A stretch of DNA of 64,000 nucleotides from a virus. Under the pieces are notes generated by a model. It ran no database searches. It saw only the letters and a list, made by a program, of their open reading frames with translations, and was not told the origin of the DNA. Position 1 is the first letter of the stretch, and each line of letters begins with the position of its first letter. A program made the position numbers and the translations under genes. Shown in pieces: positions 3,843 to 36,724 of the stretch. Location: positions 1 through 64,000 of IMG/VR virus record IMGVR_UViG_3300029922_000014; one strand, written 5' to 3'.

Positions 3843-4448
3843 TTATTCCTCGTCGATGGCCATCGCCATCGAGCTAACAGGCATACCGGTTTCGATGGCG
3901 CGGTTGTGGTCGCAGTGTGCGACAACGTTGGGGGTGATGTATTTGCCGGAACGGGGATCGTACCCGAACCAGTTGACGTCGGAGTCCAAGCGCAGGCCCA
4001 CGGCTTCCCAGGAGAGGCGCACCAGCCGCGCGGTATCTGGCGACTGCACCTGGAAGTCGGATGTTGCCACGGTCTGGTCGGCGTATGCCCGCACACCGTC
4101 GATATAGGCGAACTCCGAAAAGCGTGCGAACAGCACGTTCTCCCACAGCCGCGGGTCGATCGGACCCTGGCATTGCTGGCGTAGCCACTTTGCCAGCGCG
4201 CTGTGCGCCCGGCTGCGCAACAGCACGAGTGTCACTTGCGGGGTGACGCTGTTGGCATTCCCGTTCCACGGGATGCCGGCGGCTTTCAACCGTTCGATGA
4301 GGCGGTCGACGATGTCGAGCGACTTTTCCAGGTGGTAGCGCGAATCCGGTCCGTTGCACAGCGTCCAGAGCGCCGCGATGCAGGGGTTGATGGAATCGAC
4401 GTTTGCGATGGCGCGCAGGGCGCGGCGGCGTTCGATGGCGACAGTCAT
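3843..4448 (-). CDS. Hypothetical protein
   Basis: 201 residues from the ATG at 4448 (MTVAIERRRAL), preferred because GAAAGG lies nine bases upstream; the frame remains open to a TTG five codons earlier. Mostly helical by appearance, with no membrane segment. A C-terminal WFGYDPRSGKYI and a CDHN motif suggest a compact fold, but no family is recognised. Confidence 0.7.
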   Translation of the reverse strand: MTVAIERRRALRAIANVDSINPCIAALWTLCNGPDSRYHLEKSLDIVDRLIERLKAAGIPWNGNANSVTPQVTLVLLRSRAHSALAKWLRQQCQGPIDPRLWENVLFARFSEFAYIDGVRAYADQTVATSDFQVQSPDTARLVRLSWEAVGLRLDSDVNWFGYDPRSGKYITPNVVAHCDHNRAIETGMPVSSMAMAIDEE

Positions 4449-29050: not shown

Positions 29051-29679
29051 TGAGGACCTACCGACTGTCCAAGTTGGTTGATGGCGATGCTGAACGGAGC
29101 CATGCGGTTGGCGGCGCTCTGCTGGTAGTTCCCCATCCCCGTCGCGACACTGATAAATGTGCAGGCAACATCAGCACCGTAAGGAAGATGCGTGTCGGTA
29201 TCCCATGGACCGACCCAGGTCACTGTGGCGTTCACGACGCAGCGCATGTTCAGCAAACTGCCGATCTGGAGATAACACGGCGGCGGCGCATGGGATAGCC
29301 CATCGACCGTGATGAACGGATATTTCAGGGATTCCAGGAACTGAACCCAGCGAATGACTTCCGCCAAAATTGACGCTTCCGGAGCGGATGCGCCATCCAA
29401 GCCCTGTGCGCGCAGTTGAAAGTTGAGCGAGACGGTACGGTTCGCGGTGTTGATGTAGGTCTGATAGGATTCACCCCGCCCCAAAACCGCCGTGGCGTTG
29501 TACGTTGCTTCGGCCTGCTCCTGAATGCCTGAATCCAAGTCAACGAAGGTCGCAGAAAACTGCCTATCGCGAACAGGGACGTATTGCGTCCAGGGAATGT
29601 AGTATGGCCACGCCGTGTCTATCGACACGGTGATGAGCCCCGGACTGTGCGGCGTCTTTGCCTGTGCGTCGTAGCTCAT
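29047..29679 (-). CDS. Baseplate or tail-tube-proximal protein
   Basis: 210 residues, beta-rich. FVDLDSGIQEQAEATYNATAVLGRGESYQTYINTA includes a motif seen in tube-initiator or baseplate proteins of contractile phages (ATAVLGRGESYQTY), but I cannot assign a gene name. It lies between the tape measure and LysM genes with ATGA overlaps on both sides. Confidence 0.72.
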   Translation of the reverse strand: MSYDAQAKTPHSPGLITVSIDTAWPYYIPWTQYVPVRDRQFSATFVDLDSGIQEQAEATYNATAVLGRGESYQTYINTANRTVSLNFQLRAQGLDGASAPEASILAEVIRWVQFLESLKYPFITVDGLSHAPPPCYLQIGSLLNMRCVVNATVTWVGPWDTDTHLPYGADVACTFISVATGMGNYQQSAANRMAPFSIAINQLGQSVGPQ

Positions 29680-32600
29680 TGGTGACCGCCGCTTCCGATC
29701 ACGTCACGGGTCGAACCACGTGACCTGTTTGCAGGCTGTGACGCTGGACGATTGTTGGGGGAAGTGTTGCGGGCGATTGTCGCCAAGTGGGCCGCGATCA
29801 CCGGGCTAAGAGGATCCGCAGCGGTGACAGCGATGTCGCCAGAGGTCTTCGGTTCAGGCGCCGACGCAGTGACCGTGGCACTGGTTTCAGGGGCTTCCAC
29901 AACCGTTTTAGCGGGGGGAACCATTGCGGAGGTCCCGACAGGCGATCCGACCTGCGAAGTGTCGCCAAAACGGCTTGCAGCAGCCACGCCGGGGCCTGCA
30001 ACCGCACCAATCAGCGCAGTTCCGAAAGCAGTTCCAATCCCGCTCTTCCCAATGTGGCCAGAACGCAGTTCATCTTTGGTGATGGCACCGGTCTTCGACG
30101 AGAAGATGGTCATGAGGTCGCTGAAGAGCTTGCCATTGAAGATCGACATGAAGTCGTCCCAGTACACGATCAACTGCCGGATGAGAAAGACGACAGAGCC
30201 GATGGCGAGAGCGAAAGCGGCAAAGAAGGCCAGGGCGGTGCCACCGACCGCCAGCCCGGTCAGCGTCGCGGCCGACCCCGCAAACGCGGTGATGCCCGCA
30301 GTGATGCTTGCAATGCTCACATCAAGCGCAGCGAGGCGCAAACCAAAGCCGACGAGGCGCAAACCAAAGCCGAGAATCTGACGTGCGGCAAATGCCAATA
30401 CCGTTCCGCCAAACCACATAATGGTTTTTCCCAATCCAACAATGTTGGCGCCCCACTTCGCAAAGGTCGGAAACAGGCGACCTATCACGGATGTGGTCGT
30501 AGCAGCAGCCGTGGTGGTCGCCACGGTCGAAGCAGTGGTCGCGATCACCTGCTTTCCGGCGCTCGCGCTCATCATTGCGGATGCGCTGTAATTCAACGTC
30601 ATTGCTTCCGTGTCCGCAACCACCGCAGCCGTATGGAGCCCTGTCGCAACAGTCGCAGCACCGGTGGCAATCGCTTGGCGCCCGATGATCCAACTGCCGA
30701 ACGTCGAAAGAGCAATGAACGCTTTCTCCGCATTGGCCGCGATAACAAATGCATTCGCCACGACCGCCAGAAGCGGACCGATCGCAGAGAAGGTGTGCCA
30801 GACGTAGTTCAGCGTCGCGCTGCGGGTCACGAGGTCACTGATGTCGGTGATGAGCCCTTGCGCCCAGGTCTGGGAATCTTTGAAGATGCCGTTCATCACC
30901 GACATGCCGGTGTTGGTCTGAACCGTCTGCTTGTTCTGATCCGCGAGAGCTTGCGTGAGCGGAGAGACCCCCTTGCCCTGGAAGGCAACAGAAGCGTTCT
31001 TGGCGGCAGTCAGAGCTTCGACGCTGACGCCGAGGTTGTTGGCGAGGTTCTTGAGCGACACGTCGCTCAGGTTCTGGAGGTTGTTGCCGAACGTGTCGAG
31101 ATTGACGGTTCCATCTTCCAATCCTTTCTTCAATTCTGGCAGCGTCTTTCCGGTCAGAACATAGAGCGACTGCATCGCTTCCGGCTTGAGACCAGAGAAG
31201 GCGTCCGTCAGGGTGTCGCTGAACGCCTTGGCCAATTCAGGATTCACAGTGTTGAGCGCGCTCACCATCTTCACGGTGTTGGTAGTCACCGCTTTGAACT
31301 TGTCTGGCGAGAGTGCCGAGAAGTACCCGGCATTTTGGCGCAGCAGGTCGTTGAGCGTTTGCGTCGCGGTGGTCGCTGCGGAACCGGTCTGCGCAATTCC
31401 GGCAAAGAGGTCCTGAACCTCGGCTTTGCTGGCGCCGAAGGTCTTGGTCAGTGTCGCGCCCAGTTCGCCAGCGGCGCCAGTCGAGACGTTCGATGCTTTC
31501 GACAGGGCTTCAACCGCAGGAGCCAGCGTCAGGGCATCCTTCGACGTCAGGTTGAACTCTTCGCCCAACATGCGCGTGGTGGTCGAAAGTTCACCCAGGT
31601 TGGTAACGCCCAGGCGGAAGTCCTTCATGTCCGCCTGTAGCCCAGCAGCAAACTCGGCCTGTCCGGCAGCGTTCAGATGCCACAAGCGACTCATCGCATT
31701 CATGTTTTCGACGAAGTCCGCAATGATCGGCTCCGCACCAGAGTGTCCGAATGATTCGGCAATGCTGCCGTGAAGGTCGCGCAGCGATCCGCTGATGTTG
31801 TGGAAAGCTTCCGAGATCGCGATGAACTGCACCGGGGACATGATCTTCTTGAACAGGCGTTCGAGCGGACCGGCAGCATCTTTGGCAGCGGTCTGCATCT
31901 GATGCAACGACTTGTAGCTGTCGAGCAAGGTGCGCTTCATGCGTCCAGACCAGAGCTTGTCGTATCCGTCGGTGTCCTTGATCAGCTTCTGGAAGAGTCC
32001 GTCAGCTTCACGCAGGGAGGAGTTGAACTTCTTCATCCCCTTGGGGTCGATGTTCGCGGCGTGCATTTCCTTGTGGATCACCGCCGCCTTGATCAGGTTC
32101 TCGGCCTTCGCGAGGTTGGCGGTGAAGTCGGTGGGCAGTGCCTGAAAGTCGCCGGTGCGGATGTGCCGCGCCTGTCCGGCGATGTCGAGGATCTTTTGCG
32201 AAGCGTCAGCAGGCGTGACCATTTCATGGCGTGCCAGAACCGCGAGGTTGTCGTCAACCATGGGGCCGGCGCCACTGCTGACAGTTGCGGGTCCGCGCCC
32301 GCGTGCGTAGCCGGGGATCTTCAAAGCGCCGACCATGTCCGGTGGTTGGGGAACCTTCCGGTACAGTTTGGTCAGCGGCACGCTGGTGTCGAAGAACTTG
32401 CTCTTCTCTTTCGGAAGGCTGGCGCTGAAGCGATAGGTGCCTTTGCTCAAGAGCTTGGCCACGCCGCGGGCGATGGCGTCGGCGGCGTTCTTTCCGCGCT
32501 GCGTCTTGCCGAACATCAGTTCGACCGGTTGCTTGATCGGCTTCACGTTCTTGCGGAACATCGTCATCGTGTCCGCATAGGCCTTGGAAGCGGTCTTCGG

Positions 32601-32795
32601 GAGCACGGTAAACGATTCGACCGTCTTGCCCAGGCCAGCGAATCCAGTGTCGACCAGCTTGTTGGCCTTGGCGTTCCACTTCGAGAGGTTCTTCGTGAAC
32701 TGTTCGTAGGCGCTGCCGGCGTCGTTGATCGCCGGAGTCAGTTGGTCGTTCAGCCCCAGGAAGAAGGCCATCGTGAAGTCGGACTTGCCAGCCAT
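29676..32795 (-). CDS. Tail tape measure protein
   Basis: 1039 residues, the longest gene of the tail block and in the expected place after the chaperone. The N-terminal third is helical and basic. The centre (ADMKDFRLGVTNLGELST, LAPAVEALSKASNVSTGAAGELGATLT) has the TP901-type pattern. Two hydrophobic regions (about 690-740 and 840-920) would cross the host membrane. The last 100 residues are Pro/Thr/Ser-rich. ATG with GGAG. At about 1.5 angstroms per residue the tail would be near 150 nm long; that figure is a rule-of-thumb estimate. Confidence 0.9.
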   Translation of the reverse strand: MAGKSDFTMAFFLGLNDQLTPAINDAGSAYEQFTKNLSKWNAKANKLVDTGFAGLGKTVESFTVLPKTASKAYADTMTMFRKNVKPIKQPVELMFGKTQRGKNAADAIARGVAKLLSKGTYRFSASLPKEKSKFFDTSVPLTKLYRKVPQPPDMVGALKIPGYARGRGPATVSSGAGPMVDDNLAVLARHEMVTPADASQKILDIAGQARHIRTGDFQALPTDFTANLAKAENLIKAAVIHKEMHAANIDPKGMKKFNSSLREADGLFQKLIKDTDGYDKLWSGRMKRTLLDSYKSLHQMQTAAKDAAGPLERLFKKIMSPVQFIAISEAFHNISGSLRDLHGSIAESFGHSGAEPIIADFVENMNAMSRLWHLNAAGQAEFAAGLQADMKDFRLGVTNLGELSTTTRMLGEEFNLTSKDALTLAPAVEALSKASNVSTGAAGELGATLTKTFGASKAEVQDLFAGIAQTGSAATTATQTLNDLLRQNAGYFSALSPDKFKAVTTNTVKMVSALNTVNPELAKAFSDTLTDAFSGLKPEAMQSLYVLTGKTLPELKKGLEDGTVNLDTFGNNLQNLSDVSLKNLANNLGVSVEALTAAKNASVAFQGKGVSPLTQALADQNKQTVQTNTGMSVMNGIFKDSQTWAQGLITDISDLVTRSATLNYVWHTFSAIGPLLAVVANAFVIAANAEKAFIALSTFGSWIIGRQAIATGAATVATGLHTAAVVADTEAMTLNYSASAMMSASAGKQVIATTASTVATTTAAATTTSVIGRLFPTFAKWGANIVGLGKTIMWFGGTVLAFAARQILGFGLRLVGFGLRLAALDVSIASITAGITAFAGSAATLTGLAVGGTALAFFAAFALAIGSVVFLIRQLIVYWDDFMSIFNGKLFSDLMTIFSSKTGAITKDELRSGHIGKSGIGTAFGTALIGAVAGPGVAAASRFGDTSQVGSPVGTSAMVPPAKTVVEAPETSATVTASAPEPKTSGDIAVTAADPLSPVIAAHLATIARNTSPNNRPASQPANRSRGSTRDVIGSGGHQ
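30331..30372 (-). repeat. 18 bp tandem duplication in a tape-measure membrane segment
   Basis: GGCGCAAACCAAAGCCGA occurs twice in tandem and encodes GFGLRLVGFGLRLAAL. It adds six residues next to a hydrophobic segment. Confidence 0.8.
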
Positions 32796-32813: not shown

Positions 32814-32830
32814 ATTGACACGATGTCAGT
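32814..32830. repeat. 17 bp palindrome upstream of tape measure gene
   Basis: ATTGACA-CGA-TGTCAGT, 19 bases before the tape measure ATG and just outside its GGAG. Confidence 0.9.
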
Positions 32831-32841
32831 TGATAACGAGG

Positions 32842-33048
32842 TCAGCCCTTCTTGGCGCGCTTGGCAGAAGCTTTCTCGTGGGCCTTCCGTTCCGCTTCCT
32901 TCTGTTCACTGAGCTTCTTGACAAAGCGCTGAAAGCGGTCGAGCGGCATGTCCATGACCCCGACATCCGTGAATCCTCCCCCGCCGTGGTAGAGCAGGAA
33001 GAAGATGTTGGATTCGATGTCTTCAACGCTTGGAAGCTGCCGGACGAA
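32842..33048 (-). CDS. Frameshift-accessed C-terminal part of tail assembly chaperone
   Basis: An open frame of 68 codons (FVRQLPSVEDIESNIFFLL, then YHGGGGFTDVGVMDMPLDRF, ending in a Lys/Ala-rich helix) has good protein character but no start codon or ribosome binding site near its beginning. It overlaps the end of the chaperone gene in the +1 (equivalently -2) frame and is entered at the T6 run at 33052-33047. It lies directly before the tape measure gene, the standard place for a frameshifted chaperone. Confidence 0.75.
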   Translation of the reverse strand, partial: FVRQLPSVEDIESNIFFLLYHGGGGFTDVGVMDMPLDRFQRFVKKLSEQKEAERKAHEKASAKRAKKG

Positions 33049-33820
33049 AAAAGTCCGCGGTGATGGGTAACCCCAGTACCCGCGGCATCTGGCACGCCTG
33101 ACAATCGAGGTTGAGCTTCAGGTTGACGCCGGTCTCGACCGCGTCGAGGGCATCGACCATCGCGTAGGTGTCGGGCATGTCGAGGTCGACGATCCAGTGC
33201 TCCGTCTGCACGATGTCGGTCGGCTTGACGTCGTCGATGCTGACGATCTGGCGCGCGAGACGGTGCATCAGGCTGGTGTCTTCGACCTTGCCGGTGACGT
33301 TCTTCATGCGCTTGGCCGCCTGGGCAACCACCTTCTCGTCGGTTCCGCGCAGGAAGCGCAGTTCGACCTTCTTTCCGCATTCGGGCAGCATGCAAACGAC
33401 GGGTTCGACGAACGTCGGCCACGGTTCATTGGTGGCGGGGTTGACGGCATCGCCTTCCATGTGGCAGTCGAGTTTGCCGAGGTCGAAGTTCTTGACCATG
33501 TTGATGTGCGGGCAGTGCTGGCACTTCCAGTTGAAGTTGTAGCCCGCGGTCGGGAAGGTCCAGCGGCGCAGCGCCAACAAGATGGCAAAGCGATCGGACA
33601 TCAGCAGGTCGCGTTGCGGGAACTTGTTCGGCAGGATGGTGCAGTTGTCGATGATGACTGCGGCGCGGTCCTGATCGGCGGAGGCTTCCGATTCGAGGGC
33701 AATCAATTCGCCCGTCTTCATCTTGCGGATGGTGACCTTGCCGTCGGGAATCTTGCCTTCATACAGGCGGCCACGCGACGGCAGCGTGATTTCGAGAGTC
33801 GGAACGGGTTGGGTACCCAT
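33023..33820 (-). CDS. Tail assembly chaperone (T4 gp26-like), short form
   Basis: 265 residues from the ATG at 33820, which has AAGGGA upstream. The opening TLEITLPSRGRLYEGKIPDGKVTIRKMKTGELIAL resembles the T4 gp26 baseplate/chaperone family. CQHCPH and CMLPECGKK, plus CQACQMP near the end, look like zinc ligands. The gene ends ADFFRPAASKR; a fraction of ribosomes should shift at GAC TTT TTT and add the 68-residue tail at 32842-33048. These proteins coat the tape measure before tube assembly. Confidence 0.8.
   Translation of the reverse strand: MGTQPVPTLEITLPSRGRLYEGKIPDGKVTIRKMKTGELIALESEASADQDRAAVIIDNCTILPNKFPQRDLLMSDRFAILLALRRWTFPTAGYNFNWKCQHCPHINMVKNFDLGKLDCHMEGDAVNPATNEPWPTFVEPVVCMLPECGKKVELRFLRGTDEKVVAQAAKRMKNVTGKVEDTSLMHRLARQIVSIDDVKPTDIVQTEHWIVDLDMPDTYAMVDALDAVETGVNLKLNLDCQACQMPRVLGLPITADFFRPAASKR
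33047..33052 (-). other. Slippery T6 run, programmed frameshift site
   Basis: GAC TTT TTT CG on the minus strand, 22 bases before the zero-frame stop. Reaching the extension frame needs a -2 or +1 change. Phe-tRNA re-pairing on T6 allows -2, the type described for phage Mu tail chaperones. Confidence 0.65.
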
Positions 33821-33893: not shown

Positions 33894-34436
33894 TTAGACG
33901 TAGCCGTCGGCCTCGATCGCCTTGTCGATGGCCAGGGTCAGCGAAACGCTGATCTTGTCCTCGCCGCCCATTTCGATCTCGCCGTGCGAGAAGGCGCTGG
34001 GCCACACACTCTGAAGCGTGTACCGACGCAGGTTGCTGCCGTCGGGGGCGAAGAGGTCGATGTGGCCGGGCTTGGCGTAATTCTGCTTGAGGCCCACGGT
34101 GCCGGTGCGCGGATCGTACACCTGACGCCGCCACGCCAGGAGCAGCGAGACGGTGTTGTAGTTCAGGTATTCGCGGAAGGTTGCGGTGATGTCCTCGTAT
34201 TCGGGCAGGCCGGCAAACTTGCGCTTCTCGTTGAGGTACGCGACCATCGTCGGGCTGTTGGTGACCGACGGCAGCGAAAAGCCGTTGAGCGACAGCGTCA
34301 GGACGTTGTCGTTCGAGGTCAAACCGTCGCCACCGATTCCGGTGACGTACAGCAAACCACCAGCGGCACTCTGCGGCTCCTGAAGGTTCGCAGCGTCCAA
34401 GACGCCCGACAGGAAATTGGTATCGGAAGCAACCAT
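33894..34436 (-). CDS. Tail tube protein, T4 gp19-like
   Basis: 180 residues. Size, position after the sheath gene, and motifs NVLTLSLNGFSLPSV, AFREYLNYN-like TATFREYLNYN, and VYDPRTGTVG fit the gp19/tube fold. Hexamers of this protein stack into the inner tube. ATG with AAGGA. Confidence 0.85.
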   Translation of the reverse strand: MVASDTNFLSGVLDAANLQEPQSAAGGLLYVTGIGGDGLTSNDNVLTLSLNGFSLPSVTNSPTMVAYLNEKRKFAGLPEYEDITATFREYLNYNTVSLLLAWRRQVYDPRTGTVGLKQNYAKPGHIDLFAPDGSNLRRYTLQSVWPSAFSHGEIEMGGEDKISVSLTLAIDKAIEADGYV

Positions 34437-34456: not shown

Positions 34457-36724
34457 TCAGGCAGTGGGCAGGGTAAGCGAAGCGCCGGTGGGCAGCAGGG
34501 TCACGTCGAGTTCGATCACCTCGGCGGTGTCGAACGGAACGATGAAGAGCTTGGCCTTCATCGTCTTGTTCTGCTGCTGGAGCACCGGGTTGGTGGTCGC
34601 GTCGCAGATGACGTAGAACTGGTCGAGACCGCCGGCCGACTTGAGGCTGGAGAGCCCCGGGTTGACCAAGTCCTGGAGACGCTTCCAGGTGGTCGGGCTG
34701 TTCGGGCGGAAGTCGAGGATCCGCACCGCGGTGGCGCACAGCTTCTCAGCGTACAACAGCATGCGCCGGATCGCCACCTCGTTGAGCGCGCTGGAGACGC
34801 GCGATAGGGTGCGATTGGCGTACACCGTGAGCCCATCGCCGGTGGCGACGAGGTTCAGGATGTAGTTCACGCGGTTGACGATGTTGACGAGATTGCCCTG
34901 ATCACCGGGGTTCGGGCTGTATTCGACCTTGAGTCCGTTGACGTGGCCACGTTCGATGCCGGCCGGGGCCGCCCATGGACCGACTTGACTGTCGTTGAAC
35001 GCGAAGACCGCAGCGGCCGAAGCCGACGGCGGCAGCCAGATGTACGTCTGGTTGTATGCGTCGTAGTACTGGACCCAGGACCAGTACAGGGCGCCATAGC
35101 TCGAATTGAGCGGCGCAGTGGGGGCGTTGGCGATGTAACCGGCGAGACCGTTGTGCCAGTCCACGACCTGCTGGACCGACAGGCCAAAGGGCGGATCGAC
35201 GAGATAGATGAAGTCACCGCGGGTCTGGGCCAGGGTCAGGGCGGCGTTGATCACCGCCTGATTGGTGATGCCTGGAATGGCCAGGACGTTGAACTCGACC
35301 ACGTTGGGGTCTTGGAGAGCCTGAAGCCCGGTGGCCGACTGCCCCGAAACCGTGCCGATGTAGTCGGCGGCGGTCAGGTTGGCGATGCCGTCGGCGCCGG
35401 TGGTGGTGGTGCCGAGAACGTACGTCCCCGGGGTGACCACGCCCGCAACGAGGGTGAGCGAGGACAGGTACGCAGACGGACCGACTTCGTTCGGGATGCC
35501 CTGCACCAGCACGGTGTCGATGAAGCGCGCATTGCCGGCGGTCAGCGACAGGTTGTGGAACTGTTCCACCGGAGCCAGCGCGTTGGTGCCGAGGCTGCCT
35601 TGGGGGTACGACACGAGGATGTCGATGTTGCCCGCAGGAGCGCCGAGGATGACCGTCGGTTGGATCAGGACGCTGATGGCGTTGCCCCAGGTTCCCGGGG
35701 TGAACGCGGACAGCATGACGATGCTGGCGCCGGTTCCGGTCGTTGCAGCGGCGCCACCGGACATGCCGGTGATGATCTGCGTGACGGCCGAACCGTAGAG
35801 GTGCGTGTTTCCGTCCGTACCCACCACGGCTGCCCGCAGGCTCGCCAGCGGCGCATTGGTGCTGATGTTGGTCGCGACATAGCCGAGCAACGTGGCGGCG
35901 TTGATCGCCAGCACGAGGCTCGCCAGGGTGACATAAGCCGTGCTGCCGATCGGAACGGCGATGTGACCGCCACCGGGAGTGGTGTTGGTGAACTCGAAGA
36001 TGGTCTCGGGACTGCCATTGGTCGCGGTGATGATCAACGACGACGCAGCGATGGCAGCGAGCAGGTTCAGGAACGTCGCGTAGGCGTTGGTGCCGATGAG
36101 AACCTGATTGCCCGTGGGGCCAGACGCCACGAAGGTGAAGGTCACCGGGGTCACACCATCGCTGATGACCAGCGTGTCTGCCGCAGTCGGATTCGCACCG
36201 GCGATGAAACGGATCGAACCGGAAGCGGCAACGAGCGAGGTGCCACCGGACATGCCTGCAACGAGCAGAGCAGCCGAGGTGGTGGTGATCGCGACGTTGC
36301 CGGCGGTGCCAGGGGCGTTGCGCGTGAGCAGGACGGTGGGGATCTGCCGGGGGATTGACAGCGTGTCACCGGTGGTCGGATTCGCAGCGAGTCCGACGGT
36401 GCCAGTGGCGTAGGTGGCAGCGGCGGAACCGGTGAAGCCAGGAATGGTGGTCTCAGCGGCAGCGGCGTCGCTATGGGCGACACGCACATACTGGAGGTTG
36501 ATGCCTTCGGCCAGGGGCGGAATGCAGGACTGGATACCGTAGTCGTTCAGGACCGGCGGACCGAACTTGTTGACGAGATCCTGCTGACTGGTGCATTCAG
36601 TCGGCACGCCGATCGGACCCTTCGTGGCACCGCCCATGACGACGATGTTGGTGAGGCCGAGAGCGGGCGCGTACTGCGACCAGTCATATTCCTTGACGTA
36701 GATACCGGCGGGCTGGAATGCCAT
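34457..36724 (-). CDS. Tail sheath protein
   Basis: 755 residues. The N-terminus (AGIYVKEYDWSQYAPA, VVMGGATKGPIGVPTECTS) and C-terminus (YANRTLSRVSSALNEVAIRRMLLYAEKLC, PTTWKRLQDLVNPGLSSL, VICDATTNPV) contain the conserved sheath core; LVDPPFGLSVQQVVDWHNGLAGY is also typical. A long beta-rich insertion of about 250 residues after position 105 probably projects from the sheath surface. The insertion carries a palindrome copy read as D-T-L-S-I. ATG with AAGGA. Confidence 0.93.
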   Translation of the reverse strand: MAFQPAGIYVKEYDWSQYAPALGLTNIVVMGGATKGPIGVPTECTSQQDLVNKFGPPVLNDYGIQSCIPPLAEGINLQYVRVAHSDAAAAETTIPGFTGSAAATYATGTVGLAANPTTGDTLSIPRQIPTVLLTRNAPGTAGNVAITTTSAALLVAGMSGGTSLVAASGSIRFIAGANPTAADTLVISDGVTPVTFTFVASGPTGNQVLIGTNAYATFLNLLAAIAASSLIITATNGSPETIFEFTNTTPGGGHIAVPIGSTAYVTLASLVLAINAATLLGYVATNISTNAPLASLRAAVVGTDGNTHLYGSAVTQIITGMSGGAAATTGTGASIVMLSAFTPGTWGNAISVLIQPTVILGAPAGNIDILVSYPQGSLGTNALAPVEQFHNLSLTAGNARFIDTVLVQGIPNEVGPSAYLSSLTLVAGVVTPGTYVLGTTTTGADGIANLTAADYIGTVSGQSATGLQALQDPNVVEFNVLAIPGITNQAVINAALTLAQTRGDFIYLVDPPFGLSVQQVVDWHNGLAGYIANAPTAPLNSSYGALYWSWVQYYDAYNQTYIWLPPSASAAAVFAFNDSQVGPWAAPAGIERGHVNGLKVEYSPNPGDQGNLVNIVNRVNYILNLVATGDGLTVYANRTLSRVSSALNEVAIRRMLLYAEKLCATAVRILDFRPNSPTTWKRLQDLVNPGLSSLKSAGGLDQFYVICDATTNPVLQQQNKTMKAKLFIVPFDTAEVIELDVTLLPTGASLTLPTA
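36354..36370. repeat. 17 bp palindrome, imperfect intragenic copy
   Basis: ATTGACA-GCG-TGTCACC; the last two bases of one arm deviate. Inside the sheath gene, read D-T-L-S-I. Confidence 0.7.

Follow-up and report, generated by a model that had tools for sequence, protein, structure and literature searches.

Two predicted forms of a tail assembly chaperone in a contractile-tailed phage: a probable +1 slip at UUU_C

A general frameshift in tail assembly chaperone genes is reportedly set out in Xu 2004, and the TAC-N and TAC-NC proteins of T4-like phages are said to be the subject of Vladimirov, Gautam & Davidson 2022 (Virology 566:9-15). The standard is the gpG/gpGT pair of lambda, where binding to the tape measure protein falls to the short form and recruitment of the tube protein to the rare long form; a -2 shift is known for Mu and a +1 chaperone shift for haloarchaeal HSTV-2, and T4 has been named as the exception to this standard (PMC5009743). 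PMC3004832 counts T4 gp26 and gp51 among the hub assembly chaperones. Passages of PMC12846349 and PMC10885494 that cite Vladimirov et al. 2022 report poly-T -1 signals within the TAC-N genes of T4-like phages, some of which are said to encode the short and the long chaperone in separate genes; as far as these passages go, they correct the view, taken in the original prediction, that proteins of the gp26 type are not usually described as frameshifted. Outside the phages, +1 shifting at the influenza PA-X site UCC_UUU_CGU has been proven by mass spectrometry, with re-pairing of tRNA-Phe from UUU to UUC as the favoured route, put down to the preference of this tRNA for UUC (PMC3498833). Frameshifted chaperones, T4-type chaperones and examples of +1 shifting are all already known. 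A literature search that took in few of the subscription journals returned no +1 shifts in gp26-type genes and no UUU_CGN sites in phages, and within the literature covered it is the +1 variant in gp26-type genes, its site and its breadth that are new here.

The locus described here lies on the minus strand of a window of 64,000 nucleotides, taken from a 150-kb virus record (IMG/VR record IMGVR_UViG_3300029922_000014). Gene order in the window is sheath (34457..36724), tube (33894..34436), gp26-type chaperone (33023..33820, stop codon included) and tape measure (29676..32795, 1039 aa). The sheath and tube assignments are weak ones, drawn from gene order and from profile matches under the family cut-offs (Phage_sheath_1C, E 3e-4, and Phage_T4_gp19, E 0.001). 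The order of tube and chaperone matches that of phages LIS04, SP-15 and immuto in a gene-order comparison, and in the window and its relatives the chaperone gene stands between the tube and tape measure genes. The tape measure gene was assigned by its position, its length and its own ribosome-binding site, AGGATGGAG, directly 5' of ATG 32795; a search of the Pfam families with its protein gave no match.

The zero frame, from ATG 33820 to TGA 33025-33023, encodes a putative gp26-type tail assembly chaperone (TAC-N) of 265 aa. Its likeness to T4 gp26, already part of the original prediction, is borne out by a score of 29.7 bits against PF12322 (T4_baseplate; E 6e-7), over the curated cut-off of 24.5, and by a match to PHROG 150 (phrog_150) at E 6e-10. 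The protein is a long branch, the nearest relative found being at most 38% identical, and a sequence search of the PDB gave nothing useful. With its AlphaFold model (pLDDT 87.7) the top match in BFVD is the gp26-like protein of SP-15 (E 2e-18), and the best two of 350,542 PDB chains are the tail assembly chaperones 2OB9 (HK97) and 3KLU (YqbN), at E 0.9 and so not significant alone. As with lambda gpG/gpGT, one gene would give two chaperones by a shift near its 3' end, directly before the tape measure gene; unlike the window, however, lambda shifts by -1, no sequence similarity between the two has been shown, and the fold match to the HK97 chaperone, top-ranked as it is, is not significant.

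The end of the zero frame reads GCG GAC TTT TTT CGT CCG GCA GCT TCC AAG CGT TGA. The T6 run at 33052-33047 is in frame as TTT TTT, followed by CGT, and the TGA starts 21 bases past it; the description and positions given in the original prediction are right. Across the sense strand of the other window genes (56.8 kb) T6 occurs once, and only 24% of Phe codons are TTT. Past the run, the frame reached by a change of +1 or -2 extends from 33045 to 32842 on the minus strand and contains VRQLPSVEDIESNIFFLLYHGGGGFTDVGVMDMPLDRFQRFVKKLSEQKEAERKAHEKASAKRAKKG; its 67 codons plus stop (32844-32842) are the 68-codon frame of the original prediction. This extension would form the C-terminal domain of a long form (TAC-NC), which totals 325 aa if the shift is +1. 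The frame has its nearest upstream stop at 33120 and holds no ATG, GTG or TTG before ATG 32955; its sole start codons, ATG 32955 and ATG 32949, both fall within the conserved domain, in keeping with the claim that it has no start codon to serve it. The tape measure ATG lies 47 bases past the end of the extension's stop codon, the close succession that had been predicted, and among the loci with enough sequence a long open reading frame starts no more than 500 bases past the extension stop in 85 of 97, at a median gap of 37 nt.

The extension is genuinely coding, since its codon score matches that of real genes and a profile made without the window matches it in the +1 frame only. Under a codon model trained on the other window genes, in which true coding chunks score 0.26 +/- 0.19 bits/codon and wrong frames about -0.67 +/- 0.26, the +1 frame of the extension scores 0.315 and the other two frames -0.52 and -0.78. 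The extension profile of other phages, with the window left out, finds the window's +1 frame at E 3e-11 and the other frames at E >= 0.7. Homology thus settles that the downstream frame, first noticed for its good protein features, is coding, and both frames of the gene are. In leave-one-out tests over the phages, the profile built from the others placed each extension best in the frame expected for it, most weakly in S-RIM50 (E 8e-4); the domain is homologous across these phages. Neither Pfam nor PHROGs holds a family for it. The two domains of the long form were folded apart in AlphaFold, where the extension alone gives a three-helix domain (pLDDT 87), and a viral fold search with it returned only weak matches, to short phage proteins. 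Another open reading frame overlaps the gene, of 198 aa in the -1 frame (window 32826-33422, minus strand); it was set aside as spurious, having a non-coding codon score and no significant match to the extension profile.

Relatives were sought by tblastn, which supplied distant homologues in annotated phages, and by scans of IMG/VR. Scans with the window protein alone or the extension alone found nothing, and an alignment of five sequences was too diverse to serve as a query; group alignments were used instead. Of two such scans, one gave 35 loci and the other at least 600, from which 80 were kept. An extension profile from 15 hand-picked seeds scored above 12 bits in 102 further loci. Among the matches listed, the best extension frame was +1 in 114 of the 124 usable loci and -1 in ten, with none fused in frame; one of the ten -1 calls (L031) is ambiguous and a few extension matches are weak. 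With near-identical proteins removed, the set, which spans isolates and metagenomes, came to 110 loci, again among the matches listed: 101 with the extension in +1, nine in -1 and none fused. A third scan added eight loci, several near-identical, all -1. In all the annotated phages examined outside the T4-like group (Straboviridae), the gp26-type gene has a Phe-rich end, xF[FL] in most, next to which a C-terminal domain of similar kind stands in another frame. Because 110 non-redundant loci keep this broken frame, there is strong support for a programmed shift in the tail assembly chaperone gene ahead of the tape measure gene.

Two other explanations would do without a shift. In a single genome, a T lost or gained at the homopolymer of a normal fused gene, by sequencing error or in a pseudogene, would give the same picture. 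The out-of-frame domain is found at the same place in 110 of 110 non-redundant loci, however, and error is therefore ruled out as the general cause; isolates with the break include SP-15, LIS04, GXN1, immuto, BRock, Mel-JY01, PA5oct, XacN1 and Atu_ph07, and for the window itself we give this explanation next to no weight. It is very unlikely that the extension is translated as a small protein of its own from a separate start, even though parts of it are annotated as short open reading frames in S-RIM50 ('gp51', 45 aa), BRock, immuto and SP-15. The first start that the window offers, ATG 32955, falls at codon 31 of the extension, too late to keep the first helix of the domain, and gp51 of T4-like phages carries the domain in covalent fusion with one of the gp26 type.

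Annotation of these genes is uneven. In cyanophage S-RIM50 (L015) the 45-aa 'gp51 baseplate hub assembly catalyst' at 4220-4357 is the tail of the -1 extension of gp26, begun at an internal ATG, and in BRock, LuckySocke, PA5oct, Atu_ph07 and XacN1 (L014, L016, L013, L012 and L008) the extensions are unannotated or called separate short hypothetical proteins. Fold matches of the two domains in Leptospira phage LE4 are the consecutively numbered BFVD entries A0A343LED6 and A0A343LED7 (290 and 71 aa), which suggests from the predicted models that LE4 has the same split gene. As judged from the sequences compared, a probable +1 frameshift in the gp26-type chaperone gene is common to many contractile-tailed phages, whose genes are mostly annotated without it.

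The sites themselves vary. Among phages with the extension in +1, the gene end carries UUC UUU CGU in Streptococcus phage GXN1, UUU UUU CAC in Bacillus phage SP-15, UUU UUU AGU in Listeria phage LIS04, UUU CUU UGG in Flavobacterium phage immuto, UUU UUU UGG in Microcystis phage Mel-JY01, CUG UUU CGC and CUG UUU CAG in Streptomyces phages BRock and LuckySocke, and AAC UUU CUA in a 484-kb phage. Those with the extension in -1 have U_UUU_UUC (a 595-kb phage, Agrobacterium phage Atu_ph07, Pseudomonas phage PA5oct and cyanophage S-RIM50) or U_UUU_UUU (Xanthomonas phage XacN1). One clade, with at least 600 stretches in IMG/VR (L053-L132, with L005 and L011), has mostly UUU_UGG or CUU_UGG at the shift site, and a subclade of four loci (L037, L040, L042 and L046) is without UUU_C/U at the gp26 end and carries AAU_CCC_AGU in the overlap, where it probably shifts +1 on CCC_A.

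The original prediction had left the direction in the window as -2 or +1, and the comparison favours +1 and disfavours -2. A Mu-like -2 slip on the U6 would enter the same frame as a +1 slip and make the same long form with one extra Phe. It could occur in the window phage itself, which has the U6, and in most relatives, P-site re-pairing at -2 being possible at 70 of the 101 loci with the extension in +1. Re-pairing at +1 is possible at 97 of these 101, however, and 27 of them can re-pair at +1 only and none at -2 only; the four without P-site re-pairing at +1 all share AAU CCC AGU, where a slip on CCC_A is plausible. GXN1 (UUC UUU CGU) and BRock (CUG UUU CGC) offer no -2 re-pairing at all, so that across the loci the site is not kept for -2 as a Mu-type site would be. 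The window clade (SH-aLRT 94; 20 loci with the FF motif) separates the two Phe codons: the first is UUU in 14 and UUC in six, much as Phe codons elsewhere in those genes (110 to 56), whereas the second is UUU in 20 of 20 (p 6e-4) and is followed by C in 19 of 20. A second codon that is held while the first is free points to +1, since a -2 slip, or slippage on the T run, needs the first codon to be UUU. Slippage of the RNA polymerase on T6, a homopolymer, would take one base from the mRNA or add two to it. T6 is short for polymerase slippage, and the run is not conserved: the TTC TTT CGT members of the clade and BRock, with CTG TTT CGC, have only T3 and the same frame break. We regard the -2 slip as improbable and polymerase slippage as considerably more so, and +1 as the most likely direction in the window.

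The candidate site for this +1 shift, UUU UUU C followed by GU (33046..33052, minus strand), is marked out by its conservation in the clade and by P-site re-pairing, with UUU in the P site and C next. Among the 61 codons ranked by use in the phage, the zero-frame codon after it, CGU, stands at 45 and is infrequent, and the +1 codon, GUC, stands at 6 and is common. The site shares with that of PA-X in influenza A virus the identical core UUU_CGU and the proposed P-site move of tRNA-Phe from UUU to UUC; the likeness is one of site only, the influenza ribosome being eukaryotic and the gene unrelated. In LIS04 UUU_A, and in one subclade CCC_A, stand in place of UUU_C. Against the bacterial prfB +1 site, CUU_UGA, the CUU_UGG of the large sister clade differs by one base, UUU_UGG being used there as well; in the window the A site is CGU, with no nearby SD-like run, and the site is not of the prfB type. 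Around the shift site no SD-like element is close, and RNA folding gave no convincing stimulatory structure (z -1.65 and -1.2). Such weak structure is consistent with the shifts of some tailed phages and of influenza that proceed without stimulators (PMC5009743).

In T4, gp26 and gp51 both belong to PF12322. With a profile of the frameshift extensions that contains no Straboviridae sequence, five of the six gp51 proteins gave C-terminal matches at E < 1e-3 (best 4e-6; T4 6e-4; hhalign P 1e-6) and the gp26 proteins gave none. T4 gp26 thus corresponds to the short form and gp51 to the long one, each with a gene of its own. This is an independent check, in agreement with Vladimirov et al. 2022 as cited in the passages noted above, and not a discovery. 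The window thus shares with T4 the PF12322 domain and, with gp51, the type of C-terminal domain, but has one gene and a predicted frameshift where T4 has two separate genes; moreover, the poly-T shifts cited for T4-like phages are -1, and that of the window is most likely +1. The 150-kb record, which may be incomplete, holds one copy of each domain, and a second, fused copy of the chaperone, as in the T4 arrangement of gp26 and gp51, was not found in it.

In a quick tree with weakly supported deep branches, +1 and -1 states cluster, the four states needing five changes against about 16 by chance; T4 groups with the -1 group of cyanophages and the window lies in a +1 clade. On this tree the direction would have changed more than once, with the domain pair and the position of the shift kept. 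A wider reading, to which we give somewhat better than an even chance, is that the T4-type tail chaperones of many contractile-tailed phages share an undescribed and apparently stimulator-poor +1 class of shift, with UUU_CGN in the window clade, YUU_UGG in its sister clade and possibly CCC_A in a third, that direction has switched several times around a fixed Phe-Phe site, and that the UUU_CGU core arose independently in phages and influenza A virus.

Taken as a whole, the tail assembly chaperone gene of this contractile-tailed phage very probably gives two forms by a +1 slip at UUU_C. Most ribosomes would stop at TGA 33025 and release the 265-aa short form. In the remainder, tRNA-Phe (anticodon GAA) would slip one base forward from the second UUU to UUC, a better fit, so that the next codon would be GUC instead of CGU and reading would go on in the +1 frame to the 325-aa long form with a three-helix domain added. 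If the pair behaves as gpG/gpGT do in lambda, the short form may coat the tape measure protein and a few long forms may recruit tube subunits. The shift itself, how often it happens and what each form does are inferred, the last purely by analogy with lambda.

In many phage genomes the gap before the tape measure gene would become an annotated coding region, and the logic of a chaperone in two forms would extend to gp26-type phages outside the close kin of T4. The putative natural bacterial +1 sites UUU_CGU and CUU_UGG could be compared directly with those of influenza PA-X and prfB. The family may also offer a case in which the direction of a slip has changed in evolution, both domains and the position of the shift remaining constant.
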